From assembly GCF_051622035.1 (NCBI RefSeq), contig NC_135360.1, positions 5,270,001 through 5,334,000 on the forward strand: a stretch of DNA of 64,000 nt, read 5' to 3'. This document shows positions 1 through 60,623 of the stretch, piece after piece. Below the pieces are notes generated by a model. That model was not told the origin of the DNA and made no database searches. It was given only the letters and a program-made list of their open reading frames with translations. The position numbers and the translations under genes were made by a program. Source of the stretch: Arctopsyche grandis (taxonomy: Eukaryota > Arthropoda > Insecta > Trichoptera > Hydropsychidae). Numbering within the stretch: the stretch's first letter is position 1; each line of letters begins with the position of its first letter.

Positions 1-4810
<4,810 letters not shown>

Positions 4811-10839: not shown

Positions 10840-11285
10840 ATACATATGTACGTCAACCACCAAGCATCAAATACGACTGATGCTAAAATTATTTAGGAAT
10901 GTCTGTGGACAATCGTCACTTGACAACAATATAACGCCTAAAGCCGCTTATTTATTTATTTATTTTACATATATACCAAGAGGGCCTTACAGGTAAACCC
11001 CAATACGCCTTCCTGGCCAATTACAATGCAGCATTTTTATATCACTGTCACTGTCATTTTAAGTCACTGAATTACGAGACACTGAAAAACTCGCAAATCA
11101 ATGAGACATCTATCAATTTGTATACAAATATTTTATTTTATTTTACATATATACCAGGAAGGCCTTACAGGTAAATCCCAATGCAATGTAATTAATTAAT
11201 GTACAATATATTTATTGTACATTAATTAATTACAAATTATAGGTGACATATTGTATAGGAGGGATTTTTAGCCAATTTTTTCAAT
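10840..11285 (-). mobile_element. SINE (minus) with duplicated flank
   Basis: The SINE tail starts near 10949 and reads out to a body fragment that stops where the RTE LINE begins. An extra tail copy at about 11130-11180 shows a second SINE piece. The 100 bp outside the tail (10845-10945: GTCAACCACCAAGCATCAAA ...) matches 51830-51940 inverted, down to the unusual 'CCAAGAGGGCC' tail variant, so both loci carry the same duplicated insertion. Confidence 0.65.
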
Positions 11286-12179
11286 CTCCAGACCTATTTA
11301 ATATATATGGAGAGTATATAATGCGTAGAGCACTGGATGGTTGGAAGGGTGGAGTGTCCATTGGTGGAAAAAAACTATCCAATCTTCGGTATGCGGATGA
11401 CACAACGCTCATAGCTAATAATCATGAAGAAATGGCCGAACTGATCCGTCGTGTTGATACAGAGAGTAATGTGCTTGGCCTCCAGATAAACCGCCCCAAA
11501 ACAAAAATTATGATAATTGACCGTCACCAACAGCTGCAAAACAACAACTCAGCTTTAAACGGTATAGAGGTGGTCGATAATTTTGTCTATCTGGGGTCAC
11601 TCATATCTAACAACGGCGGCAGCGAATTGGAAATACGGCGCCGGATTACATTAGCAAAATCGGCAATGTCACAACTAACGAAGATTTGGAAGAATAGAAC
11701 CATTACAACTGCTGTCAAAATTCGTCTCGTGAAGAGTCTCGTTTTTTCTGTCTGCCTTTATGGTGTCGAGACTTGGACCATGAAGGCGGCGGATAGACGG
11801 AGAATCGATGCCTTCGAGATGTGGTCCTGGAGACGGCTACTGCGCGTGCCTTGGACCGACAAACGCACGAATGTGTCTATTATTGAAGAATTAAAAATCA
11901 AGGATAGACTGTCAACAATATGCCTGAAACGTATATTGCAGTTCTTCGGCCACATTGCACGAAGAGGTGAGGAGAGCCTAGAGCGGTTGGTTGTGGTTGG
12001 TAGCGTCGAAGGCAGAAGAGCCAGAGGCAGATCCCCCGCACGCTGGACTGACCAAGTATCTGCAGCGACGGGCGCTTCCACGGTAGTAAGTCTTCGCCTG
12101 GCTGAATTTAGAACTGAATGGAGGCAGCTGGTTGACCGGACATCATAGTCACGATCCTCAGTGATGAGGGAACTGACAG

Positions 12180-22300: not shown

Positions 22301-25300
22301 AATATTTTTTTTTTACTACTGCCATCTATGTATAAAATTAATGACTACCAACTGTCACCGAGATTAAAAATCTTCGGACCTGAAATGCTTCTTATACGAT
22401 ATTTTATCTCTATCGTAATGGCGGAGGTTCCATTTACTTACATCGATGACCAAAATGAGCAATATGGCAAAGTATGAAAACGATCGGATAAGCGGCAAAC
22501 TTTTTCCTGAATTGTTATCGTAAGTGAAACGTATGTAAAAACGACGGTATTTTATAAAAAGGTTTCAAAAAAATCAAATTTTGCTGTGCAACCTGAAGCT
22601 ATATAGTCCCAGCTTCATCTTTCAACAAGATAATAACTCGAAACACACGTCCAAAACTTTGTAAGGACTTCTTACAACAACAAAAATCATACATCGTTGT
22701 TTTCATAAACCATACCTGTATTTATGTACATTCAAATAAAAATATTTTACAGTCAACTGTATGGAGTCCTTGAAACATTTAATCTAATCTTTTTGAATCT
22801 AAATGTCGCAATGTAAAATACACATTGCAATAAACACCGAATCGACCGACCACGCCATTATATTTAAACAAGTGCCGATAAATTCGACACATATCAGAAC
22901 GATCGAGTAAACATTAACCTGAAACATTCAAATACACATATAATATTTGCATAGGTGCTTGCGAACAGTTCCAATACCTAATCTAGCAGGTGTACGGGAT
23001 CTCGACTGTCTCTGGACTGGACCACCGCGACCGCCTCTCCCGCCGCCCCTGCCTCTCGGAACCGAGCCTCCTCTGCCCCTCGGTCCGGTCACGTTACCCC
23101 TGCCTCGACCGGCCCCCCGTTTATTGACACCCCCGCCTCTGGTCAAAGTCACTTTGGCACCGCGACCTCTGCCGCGGCTCATCCTGCCGCCTCGACCTCT
23201 TCCCCTTCCGCCACCACGACCGACCGAAGAGTCCCTCTTCCTCGCCTTATTTTCCTTGATTATCTGATCTGAAACGGGTATTCAAAGCAATGATTTAGTA
23301 TTCAATCGAGAGTGGGATACAAATGAATGATGCGTACACTGAATACGTCGAAATAGATATAGAATAACCTAGATATGCCTTTACATACAAATTTCGTTGG
23401 AGATCTTGTCGCCACTATCTGAGGGATTCGGGGGGGTTTAACTAGCGGGGAAGTGGTGAAAAAAAAGGAAGGAACGCAAAAAACGCAGTGGTCAGCAACC
23501 AGTTTATGTACATATGTATCGAAGTGATGGCAGCTGGAAACATACAGATTTTTATGTTTAAAAATTGTACTAATCATCGGCTTCAAACATGAAAGGACAT
23601 AATAAGTTTTGGGATGAATTGCTTTCCAGATAACTGAATTGCAATCATAGATGTAGAATAACCTAGATATGCCTTTACATACAAATTTCGTTGGAGATCT
23701 TGTCGCCACTGTCTGAGGGGTGCGGGAGGTTTAACTAGCGGGGAAGTGGTGAAAAAAAAAGGAAGGAACGCAAAATACGCAGTGGTCAGCAACCAGTTTA
23801 TGTACATATGTATCGAAGTGATGGCAGCTGGAAACATACAGATTTTTATGTTTAAAAGTTGTACTAATCATCAGCTTCAAACATGAAAGGACATAATAAG
23901 TTTTGGGATGAATTGCTTTCCAGATAACTGAATTGCAATCATAGATGTAGAATAACCTAGATATGCCTTTACATACAAATTTCGTTGGAGATCTTGTCGC
24001 CACTGTCTGAGGGGTGCGGGAGGTTTAACTAGCGGGGAAGTGGTGAAAAAAAAGGAAGGAACGCAAAAAACGCAGTGGTCAGCAACCAGTTTATGTACAT
24101 ATGTATCGAAGTGATGGCAGCTGGAAACATACAGATTTTTATGTTTAAAAGTTGTACTAATCATCGGCTTCAAACATGAAAGGACATAATAAGTTTTGGG
24201 ATGAATTGCTTTCCAGATAACTGAATTGCAATCATAGATGTAGAATAACCTAGATTTGCCTTTACATACAAATTTCGTTGGAGATCTTGTCGCCACTATC
24301 TGAGGGATGCGAGGGGTTGAACTAGCGGGGAAGTGGTGAAAAAAAAGGAAGGAACGCAAAAAACGCAATGTGGTCAGCAACCAGTTTATGTACATATACT
24401 GAAGTTTTATTTTATTTATAACTTTATTTTATTGGACACTCCGCGTGACAGAGTAAACCAAACTAATAAAGCCATATTAAGAAAAAAATATTTAGCTATA
24501 CACACTATATTAAACTACAAATGTATGTTACTATAATAAAACCATCATTAACTATTACAATATTTAAACATTAGTACCTTCCACAAGGATCAATTTTAAA
24601 ACTGACACTTTAATATTTAGTTAATTGTTTGTAGTTTAAAACTTAATGTCGATTTCTGAATTTCCTACAGTGCCAACAAGATATACGCGTGCATTTAGAG
24701 ACATCTGTGGCAGAGGTTGTCGACCACTGCATGTAACACTACATACATCGTGCCGATATTTCATCATATGTTAAAATACTACTATAATTGAAGACATTAT
24801 ATATTAATTCTTACATATGATATGTGATGCCATCCGCCTTTTTATGTTTTCTTGAGAAATTGTAACACAATTTCACTGAATACGTTGGCATTTTCGAAAA
24901 ATGTCAATCGACCTTCCGACTTAGAAGCTAACTAGCTACTGAGAGAGTAGGCTTAGAGCGTCAGGGCGTATCTATGTATTCTATATCTATGGTCGAAACA
25001 AACATACATAAAAGGAAAGGGGAAACAATTTAGACAATCAGTAACACTTTAGTTGATAAGTAAATATATATGAAAACAAACAAAATGGAATAACATTAAA
25101 CTGTAGTCTATCAGACTTCAACACATTGAACGTAATCTATATATAACCTCTGGACTGTTTTGGAAATTCCGAAATGATTTCAACGAGAAGTTGATCCTCC
25201 ACGCTTGACCTCAAACTCTCAAAGATGGTAAATGTAATAAAGTTTCCATACAAAAACTACAATACTTTTATACGAATTGCATACACTTTGATCAACTTTC

Positions 25301-25561
25301 ACAAATAATGACTCAAACACATAAAACGCGAATTAGAGGTTTGCCTGCATATTTGGGTCACAGCTTATTCGTGGAGAATAAATAATAGTGCAAACGATTC
25401 GAGTAGAGTCGAAAGATGTGTATGGAGTGAGAAGTGAGAAGTGAGCAAGTGAGCAAGTGGGGCAAGTGAGTAATGTGTATAAATAGTCTGTGTGTAGGTT
25501 ATGTGTTCGAGCGGGGGCGTAGCGTCTTACCGAGGGACAGGTCGAGCCCCGATTGAGACAT
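19339..25561 (-). CDS. UAP56-interacting mRNA-export adaptor (UIF/FYTTD1-like), RGG/SR-rich
   Basis: Three coding exons on the minus strand: 25561-25531, 23268-22978 and 20204-19339, with phases 1 and 1 and GT-AG ends, for 395 aa plus TGA. The joined N-terminus reads MSQSGLDLSLDQIIKENKAR, a UAP56-binding motif (LDxIIK) as in ALY/REF and UIF/FYTTD1. Residues about 30-85 are an RGG/GRG-rich domain, then an RS-rich stretch (about 105-165), a second RG run (about 315), and a C-terminal 'TTTKLSDRFISLQ' like the second UAP56-contact motif (TLNERF) of UIF and CHTOP. Such proteins hand spliced mRNA to the export receptor NXF1 through the DEAD-box helicase UAP56/DDX39B in the nucleus. CHTOP-like is the alternative. 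Intron 1 holds transposon B with captured CMIP DNA, and intron 2 a CACTG-end element. Confidence 0.78.
21179..22048. mobile_element. CACTG-end element 1 (870 bp), in UIF-like intron 2
   Basis: Starts CACTGTTCGACA and ends TGTCGAACAGTG, flanked by TAA on both sides. Inverted arms of over 100 bp include 'GGTTCAGAGACGA', 'TCTATGCCCAGTGAACACGA' and 'GATTGGCTCGAGATTCGGAG'. No transposase. The 3-bp TWA duplication with CACTG tips fits a CACTA/Chapaev or Harbinger-related DNA transposon. A distant relative is at 46807-48033. Confidence 0.75.
22225..22520 (+). repeat. Dispersed repeat with captured-exon-like coding start, copy 2
   Basis: As at 17480-17790: ATGGCGGAGGTTCCATTTAC, then 'TYIDDQNEQYG' and the GTAAAGTATG donor, with a shared tail 'AAACTTTTTCCTGAATTGT'. 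The coding part is better kept than the rest. Confidence 0.55.
23352..24991 (-). mobile_element. TIR transposon 'B' with tandem captured CMIP DNA, in UIF-like intron 1
   Basis: Inverted ends AATAGATATAGAATA (23352-23366) and TATTCTATATCTATG (24977-24991), with GTCGA on both sides (23347-23351 and 24992-24996). The part 24400-24991 matches transposon A of the CMIP intron in reverse. The part 23352-24400 is a tandem array of about 294-bp units (start points 23360, 23654, 23948 and 24241). Each unit combines about 170 bp of the element's right end with about 125 bp of CMIP flanking DNA: intron, TTTCCAG acceptor and CTGCCATCACTTCGATAC of the next exon. ORFs across the array (for example 23877-24395) are repeat products, not genes. 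Confidence 0.82.
25000..25530. other. UIF-like intron 1, 5' part
   Basis: Non-coding sequence between transposon B and the first coding exon. Includes a short tandem AGTGAGAAGTGAGCAAGTG block near 25430-25470. The promoter of the UIF-like gene must lie right of 25561, but I see no TATA box. Confidence 0.4.
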
Positions 25562-38749: not shown

Positions 38750-39954
38750 TGTAAGCTAAAAAAACAAACAAAATACAGCTTAATAATGTGAACTGATTAA
38801 TCAATGATGAGAATACAAGGTATTATATATCAAAAATATTAATACAAACAGAACGAGGTCATTGTTTATTTGTCTGTGAAATTATTTATTCGAGGTCACA
38901 TTTGTGATTGAATAGAATTACGTTGAAAGTATAAATCATGAATGCTAATGTGTGTGCAATTCTTCTATGGCATCATTAACGTACATATTCACTCAATGTT
39001 TTATCTTTAGTACTTATATTTTTCATATAAGATTATAGATATCGTAGAAGTAGTTTGTTTACAAAATTCGAGTATGTGATAGTCAAAAATTGCACTCGGT
39101 ATATACGCATAGATTTAAATGGTTTAATCGGTATATTAATAAGAGATATTAGAAGATTTTACTAATGAAAAGTGAATTTAAAATTTAAATCTATAGTTAC
39201 ATACATTCAAATTTAAGTATCTTCTCATAAATTAATAAAAAAAAAAGTAAAAATACAACGTAATGATTAGCGTTTACTGATAAGAAGTGTTAAATAATAC
39301 TGTAGGATTAACCTTGTTCAAATTATCTCTAAAATACACAGATATACGTAAGTACGTTTTATAAAAACACATAATTATAATATTTGATTACGAATCAGTA
39401 CTGAATATAATTCAATTAAAATCTATAAAAAAAGAAATATCTAATGAAAAAATACTGATATGTACATATTTCATATATAATATATACCTACATACATAAA
39501 CTAAATCAATATAACATGAAGAACGTATTCGAAATGATAATATCTTATCAAATTCAAGTGTCCCGTGACATTCACTTGAACATAATATGTACCAGCAATC
39601 GGAATTGGTCAGTAATTGTTAAGAAAAAAGTGCGATATAAATTTCCCGCCGCTTTAAAATCTCGACCAATCACAGATCGACCGGATCGTTTCGACCAATC
39701 AGAGACCAGTTCGATATTGTTACGTTTTTTAATTCAAAATATAGGCACATTTCAAATGATATCACAGCCATAAACGAAGTTCATGATTTTTTTTTTAATT
39801 GATATAATCTGCAATTTGAATGACATTACAATATTATAAATATATGAATAAATCATTGTGGGAAATGAATTTATTATTACGAAATCGAAATACTTAAGAA
39901 TTACAAAAATAGAAAAAAAATATATATATATTTATACATATTAACAGACCCATG
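38750..39954. other. AT-rich spacer
   Basis: Upstream region of AKR copy 2. No ORF or paired repeat that I can support; a GC-richer stretch at about 39640-39720 with repeated 'GACCAATCA' words is unassigned. Confidence 0.4.
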
Positions 39955-40714
39955 ACAGGATGTTCTTACCACTAGCGTAAAACTCGTTTTTTGATTTTTT
40001 ACGGGAGTTCGGCTCTTGACATTAACTTCGCGAAGTCTGCGTTGCAACGTTCTTGTGGAAATATCGATTCCCTCTTCGTTCAGAATAGCTTGAATGCCTT
40101 TATTAGGCACCTTACGGTTCTCCAAAGCTACGGTGATGATTTTTCGATCCGTTCGCGGTGTGGTTTTTCGTTTACCCCCACATTTGTGGTATAATGTAGC
40201 AGTTGGAGAAACCCCCGATTGCACCGATTGTGCAATATGGGCTACCGTAGGGTGAGAAACATGAAATTTTTTTGCAATTTGTCTGTAACTATACGTCTTT
40301 TCACAAATAAGCGTTGCAATGGCCACTTTCACATCTTCTGAAATGGTTTTTTTTTGGAGCCATTTCAAAAAAAAAGTTTTTAAATTAAAATTAAAAAATA
40401 TATTAAAGCGAACGTAAAAACACAATAATATTAATTTACAACTTATATTCAAAATATTCTATTTTTAAGTCAATAATTGTTAATTTACGCAGCGTTATTG
40501 TTAAGTTAACAGGGCGAAAACTGACCGTGAACTGATTCTTTGTTTCTTTCATCCCCTGTTTCAAAATTTTCGGTTTTTTTTTACCACCACATGTGGGTTG
40601 CTATTCAATCTATCTACCAGTGCTAAAATAAACACGTGTTTCCCACATGTTTGTCAAATTTGTCACAAGTTTCGCAAATTACGCTAGCGGTAAGAACATC
40701 CTGTCATGGGTCTG
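39955..40714 (-). pseudogene. Tc1-like transposon, internally deleted
   Basis: Inverted ends CAGACCCATGACAGGATGTT and complement. The minus-strand frame gives a Tc1-type transposase N-terminus: 'TYSYRQIAKKFHVSHPTVAHI' (first helix-turn-helix), a 'GGKRKTTPRTDRKI' link (GRPR-like) and 'NEEGIDISTRTLQRRL' (second helix-turn-helix). The DDE catalytic domain is gone: the frame runs straight into the end repeat. It could bind its ends but not cut. Confidence 0.85.
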
Positions 40715-42314: not shown

Positions 42315-44338
42315 ATGGAATGTAGACTTTGTCTCTGTTCTGCTCCAGTCGAGTCCTCCGTCTCCATCCACGACTATCCTCATTCACAGGTTCAACGCAT
42401 TTTGGCCTGCTGTCAGCTACAAGTCGGTTACAAATACATACTTTTAACAACTGAATCGTTAACACAACACACTCATTACCATTTTTATTTTACAGGTTAA
42501 TAATGATGATCTGTTGCCAGATACGATATGTCTTTTATGTAAAAACAATCTTGGATTGTTAAGAAACTTTAGAAACATGTGTATTCAGAGTGAAGAAACA
42601 CAGAAACGACGGCTGGCCGAGATTTTAGATATCAAAAATGAAGAAATTTTGTTGGACGATTTAATTTGGGAAGATGATATCGGTATTAATTCAACAGCAA
42701 ATGTCTGTCAACCGGCCGTTGATGATGGAATCAATAAATCCGAATCAAGCAATTCGGGAAAAGAGTCTTTGCAAAGAGACCATTCAAAGCAAAACGCCTT
42801 ATTAATAGAAAATGATAATGTCAGGAAAAAATCGCAATTTAACGCTTAAGCGTAACAAATGTGAATATGCTTATAATTCATCGTATAATCGTAGTTATAT
42901 TTTGCAGATACTTGAAGGAAAATCCACACAGGAAAACCCACACAGATGTGAAATTTGTTCTATATTGTTCACTACTAAAACTAGCCTCATGGAGCATATG
43001 AATTCTCACACAGGGATAAAACCATACCGATGCAAATTTTGTTTGATTTCGTTTGCTCATAGATCTTCCTTAAGTAGACATGCTATAATTCACACCAAGG
43101 AGAAACACGCCATGTTAATAGAAAATGTCAGGAAAAAGCGCAATCTAACGCTTAAGCGTAAAAAATATGTACTCATAATTTATAATCGTCGTTTTATTTT
43201 GCAGATACCTGAAGGAAAATCCACGCAAGAAAACCCACACAAATGTGACATTTGCTCTAAATTGTTCACTACTAAAAATACCCTCGAGGAGCATATAAAT
43301 TCTCACAGAGGGATAAAACCGTACCAATGTGAAGTTTGTTTGATTTCGTTTTCTCATAGATCCACCTTAAGTAGACATGTTATAACTCACACCAAGGAGA
43401 AACGGTTCAAATGCGAATTGTGTCCTAAATTGTTTACTTCTAAAGCCATCCTTGTGGAGCATATGAATTCTCACACAGGGATAAAACCATACCAATGTGA
43501 AGTTTGTTCGAGTTCATTCACTTACAGGAAAAACCTTAAGCGACATGCTATGATTCACAATGTCGAGAAACTGTTCAAATGCCATATCTGTTTAATGTCG
43601 TTCACTTCGAAGCATAGCCTAAAGGTTCATATGAAATCTCACAAAGTTATAAAATCATACCATTGCGAAATTTGTTTGAATTCATTTAGCTATAAATCTA
43701 GCCTCAAGCAACATGTAAAATCTCACACCGGGGAGAGACCGTTCAAATGCAATATTTGTTCAAAGTCGTTCGCTCAGAAACATAACCTAGCGGCTCATAT
43801 GAACTCTCACACTGGTGTGAAATCGTACAAATGCATAGTGTGTTCTAAATTGTTCACTTCTAAAGCTAGCCATGTTGAGCACATACATTCTCACGACGGG
43901 ATAAAACCGTACCAATGTGAAGTTTGTCTTGTTTCATTTAGTCATAGGTCTTCTTTATATCAGCACTTAAAAACTCACTCCGAGGAGACAACGTTCAAAT
44001 GCAATATCTGTCCAAAGTATTTCATATTAAGGCAAAGCCTAGTGGTTCATTTGAAATCACACAATGACACGAAACCGTATCGTTGCGAAGTTTGTCTGAT
44101 GTCATTCACTCATAAGTTTAGCCTCAAACGGCATGTAAAATCTCACAGCGGGGAGAGACTGTTCGATTGCGATATTTGTTCAAAGACGTTCACTCAGAAG
44201 CATAACCTAATAGGTCATATAAATTCCCACAAAGGAATAAAATCATACCGATGTAAAGTTTGTTTGGTTTCATTTACTCGTAAGTCTACCTTAATTAGGC
44301 ATATAAAAACTCACACCAAGGAGATACAGTTGAAATGA
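42315..44338 (+). CDS. ZAD C2H2 zinc-finger protein, gene 1
   Basis: Proposed exons 42315-42422, 42496-42819 and 42908-44338, phase 0 throughout, about 620 aa. Exons 1-2 encode a ZAD (zf-AD) dimerisation domain: MECRLCLC and 'LLPDTICLLCKNN' supply the four zinc-binding Cys. An acidic linker follows (KNEEILLDDLIWEDD), then 15 C2H2 fingers of about 22 residues with TGEKP-like links. ZAD-ZNF proteins are nuclear DNA-binding regulators that expanded in insects. The intron 42820-42907 (GTCAGG...TTTTGCAG, 88 bp) is needed to keep frame. A second intron-like 78-bp copy (43127-43204) lies between fingers 2 and 3 and can be read through. Confidence 0.88.
43127..43204 (+). other. Duplicated intron-like segment, in frame
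   Basis: Starts GTCAGGAAAAAGCGC and ends TTTTATTTTGCAG, matching the intron 42820-42907 and the linker 'GKSTQENPHKC' after it. It is 78 bp, stop-free and in phase 0, so it may be spliced or translated as 26 residues ('VRKKRNLTLKRKKY...'). This shows that a finger unit was duplicated together with its upstream intron. Confidence 0.7.
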
Positions 44339-49720: not shown

Positions 49721-51384
49721 ACTATAGGTACTAACGGCCACACATCTGTTTAACTATAAGTGTTTTTCTCAATAAATAATGAGTATTAAAATTAAGAAAC
49801 AAAAATTTGTGTTGTTAATATAATATTATACTTGAAACCAATTCAAAATTTGATGATTCGGATTATCCGTGTTTTTTAATTATCCGTGCCCTACCTTTCC
49901 AGCATTAGCCCGGATAATCGAGAGTATACTGTACTTTTAACAACTCAATCGTTAACAAAACACACTCATTACCATTTTTATTTTACAGGTTAATAAAGAT
50001 ATCTGTTGCCAGATACTATATGTCTTTTATGTAAAAACAATCTTGAATTGTTAAGAAATTTTAGAAACATGTGTTTGGCCGATATAAGTGATGAAACACA
50101 GAAACTATGGCTGGCCGAGATTTTAGATATCGAAAATCAAACTTTGTTGGACGATTTCATTTGGGACGATGATTTCGATCTTGATTCAATAACAGATGTC
50201 TTTCAACCGGACGTTGACGATGAAATCAATAAATCCGAATCAAGCAATTCGGGAAAAGAGTCTTTGCAAAGAGAAAATGTCAGGAAAAATCGCAATCTAA
50301 CGCTTAAGCGTAAAAAATGTGTACTCATAATTTATAATCGTCGTTTTATTTTGCAGATACCTGAAGGAACATCCACGCAGGAAAACCCACACGAATGTGA
50401 AACTTGCTCTACATTTTTCACTACTAAAAATGCCCTCGAGGAGCATATGAATTCTCCTCACATACAGATAGACCCGTACCAATGTGAAGTTTGTTTGATT
50501 TCATGTTCTGATAGATCTGCCTTAAGTAGACATGTTACAACTCACACCAAGGAGAAACGGTTCAAATGCGAATTGTGTTCTAAATTGTTTCCTTGTAAAG
50601 CCAACTTTGAGGAGCATATGAATTCTCACGCAGGGATAAAACCATTCCGATGTGAAGTTTGTTCGAGTTCATTCACTTACAGGAAAAACCTTAAACGACA
50701 TGCTATGATTCACGTCGAGAGACCGTTCAAATGCCGTACCTGTTCAAAGTCGTACACTTCGAAGAATAGGCTAAAGGTTCATATGAACTCTCATACTGCT
50801 GTGAAATCGCACAAATGCATAGTGTGTTCTAAATTGATCACTCAAAAAGATAACTATATCGAGCACATGAATTCTCACAGAGGGATAAAACTGTACCATT
50901 GTGAAGTTTGTCTTGTTTCATTTAGTCATAGGTCTTATTTACATCAGCATCTAAAAACTCACTCCAAGGAGATAACGTTCAAATGCAATATCTGTCCAAG
51001 GTCTTTCGATTTAAGCCAAGACCTAGACGTTCATTTGAAATCACACACTGACATAAAACCGTATCATTGCCAAGTTTGTCTGATGTCATTCACTAATAAG
51101 TTTAGCCTTAAACGGCATGCAAAATCTCACAGCGGGGAGAGACTGTTCGAATGCGATATTTGTTCAAAGTCGTTCACTCAGAAGTATAACCTAATAGGTC
51201 ATATAAATTCTCACAAAGGAATAAAATCATACCGATGTGAAGTTTGTTTCGTTTCATTTACTCGTAAGTCTACCTTAATTAGGCATATAAAAACTCACAC
51301 CAAGGGGATACAGTTGGAATGAGGCATTTGTTCAAAGTCACTCACTCCGAAGGTTATCCTATAATATAAGTTAAATATAAGTTC

Positions 51385-59256: not shown

Positions 59257-60623
59257 ATGGAATGTAGACTTTGTCTCTGTTCTGCTCCAGTCGAGTCCTC
59301 CGTCTCCATCCACGACTATCCTCATCCACTAGTTCAACGCATTTTGGCCTGCTGTCAGCTACAAGTCGGTTACAAATATATACTTTTAACAATTCAATCG
59401 TTAACACAACAAACTCATTACCATTATTTATTTTATAGGTTAAAGATGATTTGTTGCCAGATACGATGTGCCTTTTATGTAAAAACAATTTAGGATTGTT
59501 AAGCAATTTTAGAAACATGTGTATTCAGAGTGAAGAAACACAGAAACTAAGGCTGGCCAAGATTTTAGATATCAAAAATGAAGAAATTATTTTGGATGAT
59601 TTAATCTGGGAAGATGATATTTGTATTAATTCAACATCAAATGTCTGTCAACCGGCCGTTGACAATGAAATCAATGAATCAGAGTCGAGCAATTCTGGAA
59701 AAGAATTTTTGCAACGAGATTATTCAAAGCAAAACGCCTTATTAATAGAAAATAAAAATGTCAGTGAAAATCGCAATTTAACACGTAAGTCGTAACAAAT
59801 GTATGCTTATAGTTTATTGTATAATCGTCGTTTTATTTTGCAGATATCTGAAGGAAAATTCACACGAGAAAACCCACACAAATGTGCAACTTGTTCTAAA
59901 TTGTTCACTACTAAAACTACCCTCGAGGAGCATGTGAATTGTCACAGGGGAGTAAAACCGTATCGATGTGAAGTTTGTTTGATTGCATTTACGCATAGAT
60001 CGACCTTAAGTAGACATGTTTTAACTCATACCAAGGAGAAACGATTCAAATGTGAATTGTGTCCTAATTTTTTTACCTCCAAAGCTATCCTTGTGGAGCA
60101 TATGAATTCTCACAAAGGGATAAAACCATACCGATGTAAAGTTTGTTTGTTTTCTACTACTCATAGGTCTACCTTAAGTAAACATGTACAAACTCACACT
60201 AAGGAGAAACCATTCAAATGCGACATCTGTCCAAAGTCGTTCACTTTGAAGAATAGCCTAGTGGTTCATTTGAAATCTCACAATGGTTTAAAACCGTACC
60301 ATTGCGAAGTTTGTCTGATTTCATTCACTTGTAAGTGTAGCCTCAAGCGACACTTAAAATCTCACACCGGGGAGAGACTGTTCAAATGCAATGTTTGTTC
60401 TAAATCGTTCGCTCAGAAACACAACCTAGTGGTTCATATGAACTCTCACACTGGGGAGAAACCGCACAAGTGCGAAATGTGTTCTAAATTGTTCACTAAA
60501 AAAGCTATCCTCATGGATCATATGAATTCTCACAAAGAGATAAAACCATATCGATGTGAAGTTTGTTTGATTTCATTCTCTTATAAGCATAACCTCAAGC
60601 GACATGTACAATCGGTACACTGA
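59257..60623 (+). CDS. ZAD C2H2 zinc-finger protein, gene 3
   Basis: Exons 59257-59364, 59439-59759 and 59844-60623, all phase 0, 402 aa plus TGA. ZAD domain from MECRLCLC and 'LLPDTMCLLCKNN'; acidic linker 'EEIILDDLIWEDDI'; nine C2H2 fingers, ending 'HNLKRHVQSVH'. Intron 2 (GTCAGT...TTTTGCAG, 84 bp) is required because the unspliced frame stops at TAA in 'CGTAAGTCGTAA'. The alternative GTAAGT donor inside it would break the frame. A likely sequence-specific nuclear regulator. It has fewer fingers than gene 1, as is common after unequal exchange. Confidence 0.9.

Follow-up and report, generated by a model that had tools for sequence, protein, structure and literature searches.

A transposon insertion in Arctopsyche grandis carries a captured exon border in tandem with copies of its own right end

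Introduction

Capture of host DNA by transposons with terminal inverted repeats (TIRs) is already known. In a survey of animal Pack-TIRs (PMC8277862), 370 elements are counted in 100 genomes, of which 208 are hAT, and the single-copy cases are mostly ascribed to gap filling with a cis bias; microhomology is reported for 67.6% (median 2 bp), and the donor lies <15 kb away in 56.9%. The same source (Tan et al. 2021) reports no Pack-TIRs in insect and bird reference genomes, and describes Ssk-FB4, from fly populations, as one insect Pack-TIR family, of which one locus is tandemly duplicated (PMC8277862). Among plant elements, capture through neighbouring insertions is described for hAT among other superfamilies (PMC8903248), and the plant mechanisms outlined in a further account (PMC13317346) also cover parts of the origin considered below.

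A preliminary description of the locus analysed here held that capture of an exon border by a small TIR element, with subsequent tandem growth inside another gene, is not a stock pattern. In view of the single-copy animal Pack-TIRs (more than half of the animal Pack-TIRs being hAT, PMC8277862) and, in plants, of tandem TIR ends and the capture of neighbouring DNA (PMC3310237, PMC8903248), as these sources present them, that wording was too strong. What is unusual at this locus is a unit, made of a transposon terminus plus an exon border, that stands in tandem; among the listed titles and abstract openings of open-licence papers, we found no case in which the two were amplified together.

Results

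The transposon family and the donor locus

The window (the whole stretch of DNA that was analysed) comprises 64,000 nucleotides of Arctopsyche grandis, contig NC_135360.1, positions 5,270,001 to 5,334,000, and statements about the genome refer to its own assembly (475.67 Mb, 189 contigs). Two elements in the window, A (2181-3789, plus strand) and B (23352-24991, minus strand), belong to one family of multi-copy TIR elements of ~0.8 kb, whose TIR of ~15 bp differs from the long TIRs expected of MULEs with tandem TIRs. The genome was searched with B, 40 of 1110 first-look candidates were scored, and from these 40 we fetched 29 copies besides B. The 8-bp target duplication was perfect in 14 of the 29 and had one mismatch in 4, while in the remaining 11 it was not recognised by a simple end scan. 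Together with the exact duplication at A, these 8-bp duplications (14/29 exact, 4/29 with one mismatch) suggest membership of the hAT superfamily; the terminal bases CATAG agree only partly with the hAT-type consensus. For family comparisons L010 and L025 were left out, so that 27 of the 29 copies were used. The family is star-like, with copies each 2-4.5% from the majority state; A stands 3.4% and B 2.5% from it, and A forms a long branch.

Element A sits within an intron that precedes a leucine-rich-repeat exon and is bounded on either side by a perfect 8-bp duplication, ATTGCAAT. The donor exons encode a leucine-rich repeat (Pfam LRR_4, E 1e-8), and from its C-terminus we take the gene to be, putatively, CMIP. 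The features of the donor locus are as follows.

2173-2180, plus strand: 8-bp target duplication ATTGCAAT left of A
2181-3789, plus strand: element A, in the CMIP intron
3790-3852, plus strand: donor part 1, consisting of A's right target duplication ATTGCAAT (3790-3797) and CMIP intron
3853-4417, plus strand: insertion within CMIP, not present in B; direct repeats of 16 bp at 3837-3852 and 4402-4417
4418-4484, plus strand: donor part 2, consisting of the end of the CMIP intron, the acceptor TTTCCAG and the first 18 nt of the exon
4467-4611, plus strand: CMIP leucine-rich-repeat exon, whose border was captured

Two inserts in A (about 2690-3080 and 3131-3492) are missing from B. The second of these starts with TG, ends with CA and lies beside a short ATAC repeat, and by eye it is solo-LTR-like. 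The insertion in CMIP at 3853-4417 measures 565 bp, has the 16-bp direct repeat GTCCTTTCATGTTTGA and is retroposon-like.

Layout of element B

Read along the minus strand, B consists of the left end, the body, and then R4, F3, R3, F2, R2, F1 and R1, followed by the flank. Four copies of the right end (R, the last ~163 bp of the element) thus alternate with three copies of CMIP DNA (F, 130 bp).

23347-23352, plus strand: GTCGAA direct repeat at the outer right end of B, probably the 8-bp GTCGAAAC minus 3 bp
23352-23515, minus strand: R1, the right end furthest out in B; lacks the 2-bp AT insertion
23516-23645, minus strand: F1, captured CMIP copy 1, exon part 23516-23533
23646-23809, minus strand: R2, right-end copy, terminus then ATTGCAAT
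23810-23939, minus strand: F2, captured CMIP copy 2, exon part 23810-23827
23940-24102, minus strand: R3, right-end copy, terminus then ATTGCAAT
24103-24232, minus strand: F3, captured CMIP copy 3, exon part 24103-24120
24233-24397, minus strand: R4, right end continuous with the B body, then ATTGCAAT; has the AT insertion
24398-24991, minus strand: B body and left end, with a substitution otherwise found only in A
24992-24997, plus strand: GTCGAA direct repeat at the left end of B

The left end CATAGATATAGAATA (24991-24977) and the outer right end AATAGATATAGAATA (23352-23366) are alike at 14 of 15 bases, so that the 15-bp inverted ends of the preliminary description are present, with one mismatch, and the GTCGA that it placed on both sides extends to GTCGAA (23347-23352 and 24992-24997). 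As in a Pack-TIR, TIRs (14/15) and a target duplication (GTCGAA) enclose the composite. Since the family makes 8-bp target duplications, B probably started out with the duplication GTCGAAAC, of which 3 bp then disappeared where it meets the right end. Within B, a tandem array occupies 23353-24397 (period 294, 3.6 copies, 97% matches), its length being that of the assembly alone, which represents one haplotype. R1, R2 and R3 begin at the exon joint and have no left end at that point; a second complete copy with both ends beside the first, as in neighbouring-insertion Pack-TYPE elements, is not present in B.

Origin and uniqueness of the captured DNA

Each F copy joins CMIP 3790-3852 to 4418-4484 (130 bp) and includes the acceptor TTTCCAG and 18 nt of the exon (4467-4484), as had been proposed for each unit; the proposed source is correct in its first part, and its second part, given earlier as 4417-4485, is now 4418-4484. 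Likewise, three CMIP copies had been recognised, and their limits are now 23516-23645, 23810-23939 and 24103-24232, at 130 bp each. Comparison of the F copies with CMIP shows 96.9-97.7% identity (E 2e-59 or lower), which rules out chance similarity. All F copies share three differences from CMIP, to which two of them add one further difference each. F starts with A's target duplication ATTGCAAT, so the donated DNA is that which immediately follows A's right end, ~19 kb from B on one contig, and this duplication is kept at all three internal joints of B. Because F joins 3852 to 4418 with one 16-bp repeat (an empty site), B preserves the state of CMIP without the 565-bp insertion. The direction of capture, from CMIP into B, is borne out by the intact reading frame at CMIP, by ATTGCAAT kept inside B and by the empty site in B, and the multiplication of the captured unit by the three F copies and the period-294 array.

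By the preliminary description, the capture claim would fail if the CMIP piece stood in many genome copies with no tie to CMIP. This is not the case: all five matches to F in the genome (475.67 Mb) lie in B (the three copies) or in CMIP (the two halves), which rules out a dispersed repeat. The joint between the ATTGCAAT flank and the right end (28 bp, ≤2 mismatches) occurs once at A and three times in B, accounting for 4 of 4 places in the genome. In the DNA fetched around each of the 29 other loci, no second full right-end segment was found (29/29), and at four of these loci the left TIR gives an additional match of 28-33 bp. A further 27 loci, 9 of which were already in the first set, include 26 with a single right-end segment; at L044 there is a second one, 77% alike, in opposite orientation and ~1.2 kb off, and no array. 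These single segments (29/29 and 26/27) rule out the array of B as the usual form of the family. Because F occurs only in B and CMIP, and the joint only at A and B, the capture is a one-off, and no other such array was seen in the subset of the family that was examined. Pattern scans of the viral_contigs and genome_contigs collections found nothing.

Relationship of A and B

A 2-bp AT insertion (CACATTGCG) is found genome-wide only in A and R4 (2 of 2 places, ≤1 mismatch). The corresponding form without AT occurs at 39 exact places, including R1, R2 and R3, with 36 outside B; 30 of these places were taken as loci, of which 3 are B itself, and of the 27 further loci 9 repeat the first set and 18 are new, giving 45 other aligned copies. 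The AT insertion is missing from all 45. The body substitution CACTG[T]AGG was found genome-wide only in A and B (2/2) with an exact 30-bp pattern, which misses copies with a further change nearby; it was found in 0 of the 27 other copies and in 0 of the 21 that were readable among the 27 further loci (9 repeats). A second change common to the bodies of A and B is also present in 1 of the 27 other copies. Because the AT insertion and the body substitution are found only there, the B body and R4 descend from A's lineage or were copied from A, at least from the middle rightwards. Both genome-unique markers sit in that part of the element, and so they may stem from conversion of an older copy over a long tract. 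A and the B body differ at 27 of 592 sites, and 23 of the 27 other copies are closer to the B body than A is. The divergence of the bodies (27/603) compared to that of F (3/130) gives p = 0.33.

The absence of the AT insertion from R1-R3 means that R1 did not arise by simply duplicating A's right end as it now stands. Sites in the right end also conflict: GAA is common to A and R1 (and occurs in 2 of 45 other copies), whereas the T two bases on is common to R1 and R4, A having C. This conflict requires either gene conversion or mutations that recurred. R1 has TATATC, in place of which TACATC stands in A and in the copies close to it, L057, L064 and L002; we dropped this difference as proof of a foreign origin of R1, the family being variable there (T in 8/45 and C in 34/45 other copies).

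GATAC closes the piece of CMIP exon, and ATATGTACAT follows it in the unit; the junction CTTCGATAC to ATATGTACAT occurs three times in B, and the identity of the junction in each unit, described earlier, is thereby confirmed. The usual family sequence at this position is GTGCATGTACATATGTACAT, and if that sequence stood in the end that was joined, the TAC at the joint would be a possible 3-bp microhomology. The stretch at the joint is palindromic, and its length varies in several of the 27 copies as well as in A and R4; R1-R3 start in the usual family form, unlike the present form of A or R4. R4 differs from R1 at 5 of 161 sites (6/162 with other boundaries) and R2 from R3 at 1 of 162, and the F copies differ among themselves at 1-2 of 131. 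Because R4 and R1 differ more than R2 and R3 or the F copies do, one F was probably captured first, and the expansion to three is probably younger. R2 and R3 combine an R1-like start without AT and an end that is partly R4-like, plus two changes of their own; one of the changes in R2/R3 also occurs in L066 (1 of 45 other copies), too little to choose between models. Such a mosaic would be expected from exchange between R4 and R1, and the part-conflicting sites imply some conversion or repeated mutation.

Recipient gene

B sits in the first intron (25530-23269, minus strand) of the recipient gene, with its outer end ~84 bp before exon 2.

25531-25561, minus strand: coding part of exon 1 of the recipient gene, protein start MSQSGLDLSLDQIIKEN
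22973-23268, minus strand: RGG-rich exon 2 of the recipient gene, 3' border provisional

The recipient protein starts with MSQSGLDLSLDQIIKEN, which we take to be a UAP56-binding-like motif, and continues with RGG repeats. Its designation as UIF-like in the preliminary description was not confirmed: no Pfam family matched the protein, its best PDB match was Sm D1 (E 0.0024, over the RG-rich part), and THO complex subunit 4 in the PDB gave E 0.14. The captured acceptors are in sense orientation within the intron. Their use from exon 1 is predicted to lead to a stop after 40 aa (F1, F3) or 91 aa (F2) in total, and would thus truncate the product; the explanation of the array preferred below requires no function. 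That the three acceptors act as poison splice sites in some transcripts, with the array tuning the amount of an mRNA-export-adaptor-like product, is in our judgement highly improbable.

Elsewhere in the window, an open frame at 11243-12148 has a reverse-transcriptase match (RVT_1, E 4e-9), and one at 39901-40458 has a weak match to a Tc3-type transposase helix-turn-helix (E 4e-6, below the curated cut-off). C2H2 zinc fingers are found at 42809-44335, and similar DNA at 49997-51322 and 59796-60623, probably forming a local zinc-finger cluster.

Explanations of the array

The first, third and fourth of the models that follow all agree that A's CMIP flank supplied the cargo. Our preferred explanation, whose correctness we judge to be evenly balanced, is that a second right end arose beside A, that the composite jumped, and that the unit then grew to three copies. 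At the palindromic ATGTACAT stretch the DNA would have broken or a fork stalled, and the template would have switched from the CMIP exon to a right-end segment, via the possible 3-bp TAC microhomology, setting a second right end (R1) 130 bp past A's own. The transposase would then have paired the left end with the outer right end and moved everything between them by ~19.6 kb, the landing site being intron 1 of the minus-strand gene, and later unequal exchange among the right ends would have taken F from one copy to three. The outer end of B, a terminus beside a direct repeat, and the genome-unique body substitution CACTG[T]AGG common to A and B argue for this sequence of events; against it stand the overall distances, in which A is not B's nearest copy, the R1-R3 copies without the AT insertion, the conflicting right-end sites, and a donor distance of ~19 kb, just beyond the <15-kb class of animal Pack-TIRs. 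The preliminary description had supposed that the transposase took a downstream point in the CMIP exon as its terminus and carried host DNA along, the unit being amplified afterwards. The presence in B of the CMIP DNA adjoining A agrees with this; however, the outer boundary of B, at R1, is the right terminus beside the direct repeat, and the exon joints are internal, each followed by a right end. Since B is closed on its outer side by a genuine terminus, the transposase did not use the CMIP point as its end, and we find this model barely credible.

A repair event in place is quite possible, and we entertain it tentatively. An ordinary copy (B0) would already have stood in the intron, and a break in its right part would have been repaired from the nearby A, with synthesis running through A's right end and 130 bp into CMIP and returning to B0's right end by TAC, before the unit expanded. 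Absence of AT from R1-R3 and its presence in R4 are what would be expected if R1 is the end of B0 and R4 was copied from A, and the 23 of 27 other copies that are nearer to the B body than A, as well as donor and recipient lying ~19 kb apart on one contig, also fit; gap filling with cis bias and microhomology is, moreover, the main origin to which single-copy animal Pack-TIRs are attributed in the survey (PMC8277862). Since the A-only body substitution is also in B, however, the copied tract would have to extend through more than half of the element, and a repair templated by A should have given back the 8 bp that R4 is missing beside the joint. We consider it unlikely that the right end and its flank were duplicated in tandem at CMIP (or that a circle integrated), with transposition and a later collapse at CMIP, a course in which every right end is a copy of A's. 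A single joint would then explain the order R-F-R and leave the CMIP exon intact, and GAA in A and R1 (2/45 others) is as expected of a collapsed hybrid; but AT in A and R4 and not in R1-R3 would make the duplication older than AT and A a later R4/R1 hybrid, one site would still conflict (T in R1 and R4, C in A), and R3 is closer to L057 (3/162) and L064 (3/157) than to A (5/161), L057 being near everything. Jump of a composite and repair in place are thus close rivals on the sequence comparisons: the body marker favours the jump, whereas R1 without AT and the overall distances slightly favour repair.

Discussion

Donor, recipient, joint, copy A and two genome-unique markers all lie within 23 kb, and intermediates in the capture of host DNA are seldom so readable; because of this proximity, the order of events is testable with alleles or relatives. 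A transposon terminus and an exon border that are multiplied together are also a way for an intron to gain several acceptors at once.

B is a Pack-TIR that occurs in a single copy and is unusual for its tandem right ends: it contains internal non-transposon DNA with a parental gene, CMIP. It resembles the animal Pack-TIRs, as the survey presents them, in being a TIR element with host-gene DNA inside, in its single copy, in a donor on the same chromosome piece and in a possible short microhomology, and differs from them in that it is filled with the flank of a sister copy, which brought a right end and a target duplication with it, and in that the unit is in tandem inside the element (PMC8277862). 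In the neighbouring insertions described for Pack-TYPE elements, the outer ends of two near copies move with the DNA between them, as in B, but the second copy in B is without a left end and starts inside the element, at the exon joint (PMC8903248). MULEs with multiple tandem TIRs are reported to have terminal repeats in tandem, as B does, and one MULE family has a gene fragment; in B, by contrast, the TIRs measure ~15 bp and the repeated ends are separated by host DNA (PMC3310237).

Expansion of tandem repeats inside a transposon end, for which unequal exchange has been proposed, is described for Tetris / TIR-220 of Drosophila virilis, whose repeat, according to the same account, is part of the TIR and without host-gene DNA and whose arrays reach kilobase satellite size, in all of which B differs (PMC4079207). 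In the maize composite insertions attributed to re-replication, element ends are reported to flank duplicated donor DNA, as in B, whereas the ends are those of two separate near elements and the segment lengths vary (PMC4270019).
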